Origin: a virus
Reading direction: 5' to 3' (one strand)
DNA length: 33,837 nucleotides
Virus record (IMG/VR): IMGVR_UViG_3300038682_000285
Coordinates: 1-33,837 of that record
Program-made: the position numbers and the translations under genes
Notes under the pieces: model-generated
The model's input: the letters and a program-made list of their open reading frames with translations, nothing else
What the model was told of the DNA's origin: nothing
Database searches by the model: none
Shown here: positions 22,496-28,525 of the stretch, one piece after another
Layout: the number at the start of each line of letters is the position of its first letter
How positions within the stretch are numbered: the first letter of the stretch is position 1

Positions 22496-22521
22496 TTTTC
22501 TCTTACTCCAATTAATTAATT

Positions 22522-22848
22522 TTATTCACCGTAACCGTAACCGTCACCGTAACCGGAACCGTAACCGTCACCGTAACCGGAACCGTCACCGTAACCGGAA
22601 CCGTCACCGTCACCGTAACCGTAACCGTAACCGTAACCGGAACCGTCACCGTAACCGTAACCGTCACCGTCACCGTAACCGTCACCGTCACCGTAACCGT
22701 CACCGTCACCGTAACCGTAACCGTCACCGTCACCGTAACCGTCACCGTCACCGTAACCGTAACCGTCACCGTAACCGTAACCGTCACCGTAACCGTAACC
22801 GTCACCGTCACCGTCACCGTAACCGGAATCCTGCTGATTAACTTTCAT
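22522..22848 (-). CDS. Gly-Tyr/Asp/Ser dipeptide-repeat protein
   Basis: The 108-residue protein is MKVNQQD, then 50 dipeptides Gly-X or X-Gly in strict alternation, then Glu. In the variable position there are 24 Tyr, 21 Asp and 5 Ser. Its ATG lies inside the 3' end of the upstream gene (11-base overlap) and its stop is 26 bases before RecT, as for a normal operon member. Codons are GGT (constant) alternating with TAC, GAC or TCC, each one base apart; thus all unit-to-unit variation changes the amino acid. The other two open frames of the repeat (Val-Thr, and Asn/His-Arg on the other strand) lack this context. Such a sequence should be disordered and may condense. Function unknown. Confidence 0.65.
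   Translation of the reverse strand: MKVNQQDSGYGDGDGDGYGYGDGYGYGDGYGYGDGDGYGDGDGYGYGDGDGYGDGDGYGDGDGYGYGDGSGYGYGYGYGDGDGSGYGDGSGYGDGYGSGYGDGYGYGE
22529..22828. repeat. Hexanucleotide tandem array, 50 units in perfect register
   Basis: Read on the plus strand there are 50 uninterrupted units of CCGTAA (24), CCGTCA (21) and CCGGAA (5), with no insertion or deletion and no other variant. The first three bases of each unit apart from one position, and the last base, never change. The order is not simply periodic, though pairs and triplets such as TCA-TCA-TAA recur, as expected from past slippage or unequal exchange. It encodes the Gly-X repeat protein on the minus strand. Confidence 0.97.
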
Positions 22849-24237: not shown

Positions 24238-24440
24238 AATCCCATCCGACTTTCTGCGATACTGATCACTGCTTTTTTAATGCCGTCATACAAATCATTT
24301 TCGTGATACTGTTTATACAGCATATCCCGAACGGCCTCGGGGTCGCTCTCCATCATTTTTTCTATGATCTGGCTAACTCCGGTTTCTTTATCTACCAACT
24401 CATCGAAAAATGCTGGTACGTCTATTGATTTTGTGTGCAT
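24234..24440 (-). CDS. Small acidic hypothetical protein
   Basis: The 68-residue protein starts at ATG with TGAGG six bases upstream and overlaps the methyltransferase start by four bases (TTGA). It is helical and acidic in its first two thirds (FFDELVDKETGVSQIIEKMM). No family recognised. The half attC site lies directly upstream of its start codon, so it is the first non-cassette gene after the left cassette pair. Confidence 0.6.
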   Translation of the reverse strand: MHTKSIDVPAFFDELVDKETGVSQIIEKMMESDPEAVRDMLYKQYHENDLYDGIKKAVISIAESRMGF

Positions 24441-24452
24441 AGTTGCCTCAAT

Positions 24453-24475
24453 TCCGCTTAATAAAACTGTTATGC
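24453..24475 (+). other. Right half of an attC-like site (L' and R' boxes)
   Basis: TCCGCTTAAT (24453-24462) resembles an integron L' box, and GTTATGC (24469-24475) an R' core. The L' start is 16 bases before the R' start, the same spacing as in the complete site at 24781-24843. No matching L''/R'' half is present to the left, so the site is truncated. The base after the G of the core (24470) marks the expected left border of the ASCH cassette. Confidence 0.65.
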
Positions 24476-24784
24476 GTTACCAATCTCTAACACCTTTCCG
24501 AGACCGATAACAAAGTATTTCTGCTCTGGCTCCAGGGGTTCGCCGTTTGCTTGCTCACAGTATTTCCCTTCAATAATTGCCATGCCTTCAAATTCAACTC
24601 GCAAAAAAGGGCGGTGCTTGCCATATCCATTGGTAAACCGAATCTCGTCATAGTTTTGATAACCGCTGCGCCCCAACAATCGAGACATCCAGTGCGGCTT
24701 ATATTCACGATATTCAAATGCCTTCTCACCGCTGGCGATCAAGTCGAACCACTTCTTTTTTAATGTCAGTTGCAAAATACGCAT
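24470..24784 (-). CDS. ASCH-domain protein on an integron-type cassette
   Basis: The 104-residue protein starts MRILQLTLKKKWFDLIASGEKAFEYRE, the typical ASCH opening with a conserved Gly-Glu-Lys and a Tyr-Arg, then a W/R-rich helix, IRFTNGYGK and a C-terminal FVIGLGKVLEI strand. ASCH folds resemble PUA and bind RNA or modified nucleotides; the ligand here is unknown. The gene is antiparallel to the attC sites. Its stop codon TAA is the complement of TTA at 24470-24472 in the R' core, and its ATG lies in the R'' core of the next site, so it exactly fills a 368-base cassette (24470-24837). There is no clear ribosome-binding site upstream. Confidence 0.85.
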   Translation of the reverse strand: MRILQLTLKKKWFDLIASGEKAFEYREYKPHWMSRLLGRSGYQNYDEIRFTNGYGKHRPFLRVEFEGMAIIEGKYCEQANGEPLEPEQKYFVIGLGKVLEIGNA

Positions 24785-24843
24785 AACAAAATATTCAAAG
24801 CGGAACTCCGCTTCGCTCCGTCCGTTTAATGTCGCCGTTATAA
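24781..24843 (+). other. Complete attC-like integron recombination site
   Basis: In order: R'' GCATAAC (24781-24787), five-base spacer, L'' ATTCAAAGCGGA (24793-24804), a 16-base terminal part containing AAGCGGA/TCCGCTT complementarity, L' TCCGTTTAAT (24821-24830), six-base spacer, and R' GTTATAA (24837-24843). L'' and L' pair except for an extra C after ATT and an extra G; the unpaired C matches the extrahelical base that gives known attC sites their orientation. L'-to-R' spacing is 16 and R''-to-L'' spacing is 12, as in the attC of aadA cassettes as I recall it. R'' is the exact reverse complement of the core at 24469-24475. Confidence 0.75.
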
Positions 24844-25053
24844 AGAAATCTTGATCCCATCAAATGCCTTTTTCGCAACTTCCAGCCCATGTCTGTACCC
24901 GGCTTGCTCTGCATCACGAACTGCACTTTCTATCTGCCTAGCCAAATAAATATCCGGCACTGTCCCATCAAACAGCTTTTCATAGGTATGCCGTGCAAAT
25001 ATTTGAAGTTCGCCTGTTTTAACATAGTGGCTTAATGTTGTTTTCTGGTTCAT
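24838..25053 (-). CDS. Small hypothetical protein on a second integron-type cassette
   Basis: The 71-residue protein (MNQKTTLSHYVKTGELQIF at the start, RQIESAVRDAEQAGYRHG in the middle) is helical and of unknown family. AGGAT lies nine bases upstream of the ATG. Its stop TAA is the complement of TTA at 24838-24840, immediately after the G of the R' core, the same arrangement as for the ASCH gene. The start lies one base before R'' TTATAAC of the next site. The gene thus fills a cassette of about 285 bases in antiparallel orientation. Confidence 0.65.
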   Translation of the reverse strand: MNQKTTLSHYVKTGELQIFARHTYEKLFDGTVPDIYLARQIESAVRDAEQAGYRHGLEVAKKAFDGIKISL

Positions 25054-25129
25054 TTATAACAATCCTATTCACGCAGACGGCTTTACCGCCGTGCTGCTTC
25101 GTTTAAAGTTCTCGCCGCTGGTGTTACTT
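25054..25129 (+). other. Degenerate attC-like site
   Basis: TTATAAC (25054-25060) is the exact reverse complement of the R' core GTTATAA at 24837-24843. ATTC follows at 25067, close to the usual L'' place, and GCAGACGGC pairs with GCCGTGCTGC (one extra G) to form a strong terminal stem. The right side is unclear: GTTACTT at 25123 is the best R' candidate but lacks an L' box at the expected distance. The interval 25054-25160 holds no other convincing gene. Confidence 0.45.
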
Positions 25130-27750: not shown

Positions 27751-27809
27751 ACCTAACGATTTGTGTTAAGCGAGTGAGTGCGCGAATCCGCTAGAACTGA
27801 TTGTTAGCC
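27751..27809 (+). other. attC-like integron site downstream of the zinc protein
   Basis: R'' ACCTAAC (27751-27757) fits the RYYYAAC consensus perfectly. A TTAAGCGA L''-like stretch lies at 27766-27773, L' TCCGCTAGAA at 27787-27796, and R' GTTAGCC at 27803-27809 fits GTTRRRY except one base. L' starts 16 bases before R'. L''/L' pairing is weaker than in the site at 24781. The rest of the 27736-27911 gap holds a promoter. Confidence 0.55.
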
Positions 27810-27849
27810 TGTATGGTGGAAATTAACTGTAAATAGATGAATTAAAGTA

Positions 27850-27877
27850 TTGTGTTTTAATCTAATAGTGTTATTAT
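27850..27877 (+). promoter_or_regulatory. Candidate promoter within a cassette-like segment
   Basis: TTGTGT (27850-27855) and TATTAT (27872-27877) are 16 bases apart in a very AT-rich stretch, about 35 bases before the ATG of the 55-residue gene. It would give the two small genes downstream their own transcription inside the cassette-like segment. Confidence 0.4.
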
Positions 27878-27911
27878 AGATACATAGACAAACACAACAA
27901 AGGAAAACAAA

Positions 27912-28079
27912 ATGAAAGAATATTATTCAACATACAGCACAACACATGGCTTGAAGTTTTTCAAAGACCTAAAATCCGCGCTGGATCACATGCGGACAGC
28001 AAACGATCATTTCCCAAGAGGCGTAATTTTTCACAAAGAAGACGAAAATGGCAGATCTTTACTGCCTTCCGATCAATGA
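27912..28079 (+). CDS. Small hypothetical protein, 55 residues
   Basis: The frame begins MKEYYSTYSTTHGLKFFKDL and continues with KSALDHMRTANDHF. AAGGAAAACAAA precedes the ATG, a good ribosome-binding site, and the stop overlaps the next start (ATGA). The length, spacing and coupling support a real gene. It resembles small phage or cassette proteins with a short alpha/beta fold; no family recognised. Confidence 0.6.
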   Translation: MKEYYSTYSTTHGLKFFKDLKSALDHMRTANDHFPRGVIFHKEDENGRSLLPSDQ

Positions 28080-28258
28080 AAAAACACAACAGAGGCGGCC
28101 CCAGGGAAGGGGCTGGAAGACCAAAAGGCGCAACAGGGAAGGAATTGAAAAAAGTTTACAGCCTGCGAGCGTACCCTTCGGACGTGTCAAAACTTGAAAT
28201 TAAGCTTCAGAAGTTGCTGGATAAGGCGATAAGACAGCACTTAGAGAATACAGGCTAA
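28076..28258 (+). CDS. Small DNA-binding-type protein with GGPREGAGRPKG motif
   Basis: The 60-residue protein has GGPREGAGRPKGATGK at residues 7-22, an AT-hook-like arm common in small phage and plasmid proteins, followed by a strand-helix-helix segment (KKVYSLRAYPSDVSKLEIKL) like a ribbon-helix-helix fold. It probably binds DNA, perhaps as an autoregulator. Its TAA stop lies inside the R'' core GGCTAAC of the following partial attC-like site. Confidence 0.65.
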   Translation: MKKHNRGGPREGAGRPKGATGKELKKVYSLRAYPSDVSKLEIKLQKLLDKAIRQHLENTG

Positions 28259-28287
28259 CGATTTACATAAGCGGCGCAGTACGCGCC
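28253..28287 (+). other. Left half of an attC-like site
   Basis: R'' GGCTAAC (28253-28259) is the exact reverse complement of R' GTTAGCC at 27803-27809, which marks the other border of the same cassette-like segment. An L''-like ATAAGCGG follows, then GGCGC-AGTAC-GCGCC (28273-28287), a perfect terminal stem. No L' or R' half follows. R'' and its spacer share CTAACGATTT with the site at 27751. Confidence 0.5.
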
Positions 28288-28300
28288 AGAGGATAGCAAC

Positions 28301-28525
28301 ATGAGTGAGCAAAAAACAGAAGCAACGGCCAGCACAGGACGCGAAGCGTCCGACCTTAATGGACTTGTTAACTGTCTGTCGTGCGGATATGCAGGAACAA
28401 TTGATACATATAATCCAACATTTTCATTGTATAGCGATATTAGATGCCCGAAATGTGCCAGTACTAATAATCAACATAATAGTGATTATTTCGATCGGTT
28501 GTCAGCAGCAATGAAAGACAGTTAA
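28301..28525 (+). CDS. Small zinc-ribbon-type protein
   Basis: The 74-residue protein has CLSCGYAG near residue 25 and CPKCAS near residue 50, a classic pair of Cys-X2-Cys knuckles for one zinc ion, with a Tyr/Thr-rich strand region between them. AGAGGA precedes the ATG. Phage proteins of this type are often nucleic-acid-binding. Its stop TAA falls inside the R'' core of the attC-like site downstream, as is frequent for integron cassette genes. Confidence 0.7.
   Translation: MSEQKTEATASTGREASDLNGLVNCLSCGYAGTIDTYNPTFSLYSDIRCPKCASTNNQHNSDYFDRLSAAMKDS

Follow-up and report, generated by a model that had tools for sequence, protein, structure and literature searches.

An integron question in a phage early region

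Does a phage early region carry genuine integron gene cassettes when it has no integron integrase of its own? The question is raised by a linear IMG/VR virus record of 33,837 bases (IMGVR_UViG_3300038682_000285), possibly a fragment, the whole of which is here termed the window. The initial annotation had read two of its genes, flanked by attC-like motifs, as integron-type cassettes, a reading that is supported by attC sites found with a covariance model, by the complementarity of cassette cores, and by the absence of an integrase. Indeed, we would give a probability of roughly four in five to there being at least three genuine cassettes here, i.e., those of an ASCH-like gene, of a 71-aa gene, and of a pair of genes of 55 and 60 aa, each attC-bounded and together placed in two divergent early operons.

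The window encodes terminase, a portal-type connector, lysis functions, and RecE/RecT-type recombination genes, with RecT-like and exonuclease VIII-like genes found on either side of the cassette region. Six-frame searches with PF00589 and TIGR02249 returned no tyrosine recombinase or integron integrase at E ≤ 10 in this linear, possibly fragmentary record, which is as the initial annotation had it. A cytosine DNA methylase gene stands two genes from the ASCH-like gene, and what can be said of cassette gene function in the window is limited to just that, ASCH-like and near a methylase gene.

Relatives offer little by way of comparison. DNA comparison with annotated phages gave no match for the cassette region and one weak structural match, and a distant relative (G397) has little of the early region in common and no attC match. 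The collections searched yielded no sibling phage in which the site is empty; the near-identical contig L315 (99.98%) ends at 22759, which is before the cassette region. That contig breaks within a long short-unit repeat (window 22512-22848), the minus strand of which reads as a Gly/Tyr/Asp repeat protein of 108 aa, and another frame as a Thr/Val repeat.

Finding attC sites with a covariance model

A scan of the window against Rfam reached the threshold of no family and was uninformative as regards attC. A covariance model, here R1, was therefore built from 27 aligned bacterial attC sites, that is, from plasmid class 1 and chromosomal integrons, the latter located via their TIGR02249 integrases. 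Held-out positives (Tetrasphaera phage TJE1, Pseudoalteromonas phage PH101, and a Vibrio phage array) are found by R1 at 14-37 bits. The three top-ranked R1 matches in the window are the same with filters on or off, and the first of these is the complete site of a plus-strand cluster, for which the initial annotation had proposed just such a search. The features of this cluster are:

24437-24475, plus strand: upstream half site, read from the sequence; L' GCTTAAT at 24456-24462, spacer AAAACT, R' GTTATGC at 24469-24475
24470-24837, minus strand: cassette A, 368 bp between its two G^TT cuts, with an antisense ASCH-like gene; outer cores GTTATGC and GCATAAC, exact reverse complements
24470-24784, minus strand: ASCH-like protein, 104 aa (phrog_625, E=6.5e-21)
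24781-24843, plus strand: complete attC; R1 23.2 bits, E=0.0067 in the window
24838 to about 25123 (outer end uncertain), minus strand: cassette B, with the 71-aa gene at 24838-25053; cores GTTATAA (24837) and TTATAAC (25054-25060), exact reverse complements
25054-25129, plus strand: degenerate terminal site, read from the sequence; no R1 match

The complete site runs R'' GCATAAC (24781-24787), five nucleotides (AAAAT), L'' ATTCAAAG, loop, L' GTTTAAT, six nucleotides (GTCGCC), and R' GTTATAA (24837-24843). Its orientation is plus because L'' carries an extra C, a feature that the initial annotation had likened to classical attC sites and that indeed matches the class 1 aadA layout. The other motifs cited by that annotation likewise are all in place, with both of its cross-cassette core pairs being exact reverse complements. 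Upstream, GCTTAAT-AAAACT-GTTATGC at 24456-24475 makes a good attC 3' arm, accompanied by a possible R'' remnant, GCATAGT at 24437, with the variable loop deleted; R1 does not detect this half site on its own. At the other end, the degenerate site proposed earlier at 25054-25129 stands only in part: its 5' arm (TTATAAC-AATCCT-ATTCACGC) is plausible, but the spacing of its 3' arm (GTTACTT at 25123) is poor, and R1 finds nothing there even with filters off. No more than a half site can be claimed here.

The ASCH-like gene overlaps the cores that bound it, its ATG being mostly within R'' GCATAAC and its TAA within R' GTTATGC. A match of its protein to PF04266 is sub-threshold (19.4 versus 21.2 bits). 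Among the loci of its relatives (27 viral and 5 genomic) none has an attC at E ≤ 10, and neither this gene nor the 71-aa gene could be traced to integrons in the loci searched. A protein search found no relatives of the 71-aa protein of cassette B, nor of a 68-aa protein.

A second cluster forms part of the opposite, rightward early operon and holds a two-gene cassette. Its features are:

27751-27809, minus strand: attC; R1 19.3 bits, canonical bottom-strand fold
27757-28258, plus strand: cassette C, with a pair of genes antisense to attC; outer cores GTTAGCC (28259-28253) and GGCTAAC (27809-27803), exact reverse complements
27912-28079 (55 aa) and 28076-28258 (60 aa), plus strand: genes of cassette C, as open reading frames
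28253-28373, minus strand: attC with a long variable region; R1 16.4 bits

The initial description is thus incomplete: the readable attC sites number three and fall into two clusters, and both sites of the second cluster had been missed. These two lie close together and are both on the minus strand, with the plus-strand cluster consisting instead of one full and additional partial sites. The stop codon (TAA) of the 60-aa gene falls within the R' core of the attC at 28253-28373, and a 74-aa gene (28301-28525) has its ATG inside the variable part of that same site. The 74-aa protein, that is, has an N-terminus encoded by attC sequence; it also bears CxxC pairs.

Might these sites be chance resemblances, i.e., unrelated intergenic hairpins which together with short inverted cores mimic attC? 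Each score is modest (16-23 bits, which is at the low end of the attC range), and the third site to have been named, 25054-25129, fails R1. Against this, R1 yields three sites in the 34 kb of the window versus zero matches at E ≤ 10 in 51 other phage loci totaling 792 kb. The cores, considered next, speak against chance as well, and we view such mimicry as very improbable.

The circle signature

A cassette enters as a circle at G^TT, such that the R' before its gene and the R'' after its gene derive from one attC. The R' and R'' of one cassette therefore should pair, since both come from the same circular attC, and the initial annotation had accordingly taken core complementarity as the mark of an inserted cassette. 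As a control, 178 R1-detected attC sites from outside of the window were scored at the four variable core bases. Complementarity is complete (4/4) for 60 of 97 adjacent attC pairs (62%) versus 5.6% of random pairings, and within single sites for 15 of 178 (8%). In the window the outer R'/R'' cores match at 4/4 in all three cassettes, with only 2/4 matching within each of the three attC sites. By random pairing, three exact cross-cassette core pairs out of three would be expected with a chance of about 2e-4.

Folding, and a possible role as RNA

Folded as single-stranded DNA, the second-cluster site at 27751-27809 is predicted to give, from its bottom strand and at minimum free energy, a hairpin whose R and L boxes are paired. 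For the bottom strand of 24781-24843, whose folding the initial annotation had also proposed, an R- and L-box fold is possible but is not that of minimum energy, with the canonical fold at -0.7 kcal/mol versus -7.2 for a structure with a competing GCGGA/TCCGC hairpin. Given this poor canonical fold, weakness or ongoing decay of the site is possible, as is partial decay of the window's attC sites more generally. Of the evidence against present activity, the predicted non-canonical fold weighs most. Along with the low-end scores, and an outer site of cassette B which R1 does not recognize, it counts against these being genuine integron cassettes, as do the failure to find an empty-site sibling, relatives of the ASCH-like gene that in the loci searched have no attC beside them, and the fact that evidence for movement is from other viral contigs.

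The same fold can be read differently, that is, as a sign that attC-derived hairpins have lost recombination and now serve the phage as RNA elements, whether as attenuator or as translation leader. Start codons do lie in or right behind attC sequence, and positions 24815-24796, when read as mRNA, give a terminator-like hairpin with AATATTTTGT after it. Yet the cores are intact, the extra L'' base is retained, and the fold of 27751-27809 remains canonical. Terminator-like matches in a scan moreover number 3 versus 4.0 in shuffles, that is, no more than in shuffled sequence, for which reason the attenuator version was rejected. A conversion to RNA elements overall seems to us distinctly unlikely.

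Gene-versus-attC polarity

With a canonical integron cassette, the gene is sense to its attC and its stop codon is beside R''. In the window, by contrast, every cassette gene is antisense to attC, and this is so in both clusters, with plus-strand attC sites among leftward genes and minus-strand attC sites among rightward genes. The initial annotation had made no remark on this polarity.

How general this is was surveyed using a strict attC pattern in viral contigs (105 stretches, 80 loci among the matches listed), followed by R1 scoring. The set includes TJE1 and PH101; the window is perhaps among its weakest entries or below the 150 best. Gene direction was assigned by three simple ORF rules rather than by a trained gene finder, and exact counts vary by rule. 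By the third rule, with the majority taken per locus, viral loci are 34 antisense, 18 sense, and 9 unclear (i.e., 34 of 52 classifiable loci antisense) versus 1, 11, and 1, respectively, for bacterial integron loci (1 of 12). By the second rule, and counting sites, there are 66 antisense and 55 sense viral sites versus 8 and 41 bacterial ones. Viral and bacterial polarity thereby differ with a Fisher p of 6e-4 by locus, where counts are partly dependent owing to overlapping or sibling loci (L184/L246, L185/L237, L197/L268), and of 5e-10 by site, a value inflated because sites are non-independent.

The antisense excess inside viral contigs is itself modest (34/52, p = 0.04), and so the safe claim is limited to viral arrays being without the bacterial sense rule. 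An outright antisense preference in viral arrays is at most suggested. Sense and antisense arrays both are present in contigs bearing phage hallmark genes. An exclusive rule equating phage with antisense was considered and rejected, as sense arrays are found also in terminase- or portal-bearing contigs (L211, L258, L235). Published phages as well go both ways, with the attC sites of TJE1 in the same direction as its genes, and those of PH101, as also one P12002L site (from a simple motif scan, having been missed by R1), opposite to them. The published PH101 cluster (L182, Pseudoalteromonas phage H101/PH101, 25919-27987) is antisense to annotated genes, on which no comment was found in the text of PMC9892861.

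A further array, L222:118-1630, has four consecutive antisense attC sites, at some of which the gene begins in GTTATG and is preceded by a run of purines (AAGGA, GGAG). There, as judged from these motifs, ribosome binding and translation start may both be provided for by attC sequence.

Cassette movement between viral contigs

Evidence for movement comes from other viral contigs, not from the phage of the window. Cassettes of viral arrays were compared with all of the viral loci collected. Two contigs, L209 (4166-4816) and L221 (7528-8178), have as their sole common segment 651 nt of 94.5% identity, with identity beyond its ends at 21-22%. The segment ends at CTAACG and GCATAACGC, at most 4 nt from the predicted cuts. 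The gene within it runs antisense to attC from a start in the core (GTTATG), and its product is a Mom-like DNA-modification protein (PF25680, E=4e-37). L191 and L286 have one cassette in common (396 nt, 90%), the ends again being at most 4 nt from predicted cuts, plus a 43-nt match elsewhere. In addition, sibling contigs from different samples, L184 and L246, are 99.7-100% identical over long stretches; their arrays part at a GCATAAC core, and in one of the two an additional 64-nt stretch is present at an attC. Among other cassettes, an antisense one in L208 carries another Mom-like gene, and L222 an N6/N4 DNA methylase.

The comparison shows that cassettes of this type, those of other contigs rather than of the window, move as units among viral contigs. 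Placement of the junctions points to an integrase as the probable agent of that movement.

How cassettes may come and go

By the reading of the window arrays as genuine cassettes, the integron integrase of some host would have inserted them, with attC folded as its bottom strand and cut at G^TT. As the genes are antisense to attC, the bottom-strand sequence is the 5' leader of each phage gene, with cores (RYYTAAC, GTTATG) able to supply stop and start codons. Co-infecting or successive phages might then swap cassettes via host integrases, an exchange that would bring to a phage small accessory and anti-restriction genes.

An unlikely alternative is that homologous or illegitimate recombination captured the attC arrays ready-made out of some bacterial integron, with no integrase ever having acted on the phage genome. 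The RecT-like and exonuclease VIII-like genes flanking the region would suit such capture, and off-target recombination has been raised as a source of phage clusters by Qi et al. (PMC9892861). Bacterial arrays, however, are nearly all sense, whereas those of the window are antisense. The window's two clusters, furthermore, are on opposite strands with the genes of each co-directional with their own operon, and exchange of single cassettes has occurred between unrelated viral contigs.

Going beyond the window, integrase-mediated insertion leads to a broader and more tentative idea, which we see as possible rather than probable. Phages may share a cassette pool of their own, of inverted polarity, with genes whose coding strand is the recombinogenic strand of attC and whose leader, start, and stop are provided by attC, anti-restriction genes (Mom-like proteins, DNA methylases) being traded singly via host integrases. 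If true, then host integrons double as a gene-swapping service for phages, anti-restriction genes included, and the reason for inverted polarity becomes a testable question. Phage attC clusters have hitherto been known from few cases. The window and a small survey together suggest that such clusters are not rare in viral contigs, that they may take a polarity which bacterial integrons avoid, and that there has been past exchange between phages.

Comparison with known systems

That phage attC clusters have been little reported, as the initial annotation put it, is fair; integrase-less phage clusters nonetheless have already been published, with functional assays. Qi et al. 2023 describe 17 phage attC clusters without integrase (CALINs), and 5 of 6 tested phage sites recombine with attI1 under IntI1 (PMC9892861). 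Cassette direction is discussed there; no statement on gene-versus-attC polarity was found in the text of PMC9892861. A literature search, outside of which were most subscription journals and all of bioRxiv, found no report of inverted polarity in phages or of phage-phage exchange of single cassettes, which is not proof that these two points are new.

A Vibrio anguillarum prophage (MK672802) resembles the window in having a cassette array in a phage genome, but there an integron integrase accompanies the array, which has been described as a subset of the chromosomal integron of its host. Class 1 and chromosomal cassettes share with those of the window the R''-spacer-L''-loop-L'-spacer-R' order, the extra L'' base, the G^TT core, and circle-derived complementarity, with the site at 24781-24843 being like the class 1 aadA attC also in its 5-nt spacer, L'' with extra C, and 6-nt spacer. 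Unlike in those integrons, no integrase was found in the window and its cassette genes are antisense. Closest are the CALINs of virulent phages (TJE1, PH101, P12002L; PMC9892861), which likewise consist of attC-bounded small genes with no integrase, and of which PH101 has attC sites antisense to annotated genes just as does the window. What differs in the window is that its two clusters occupy opposite strands, both of them antisense to the operon that holds them.
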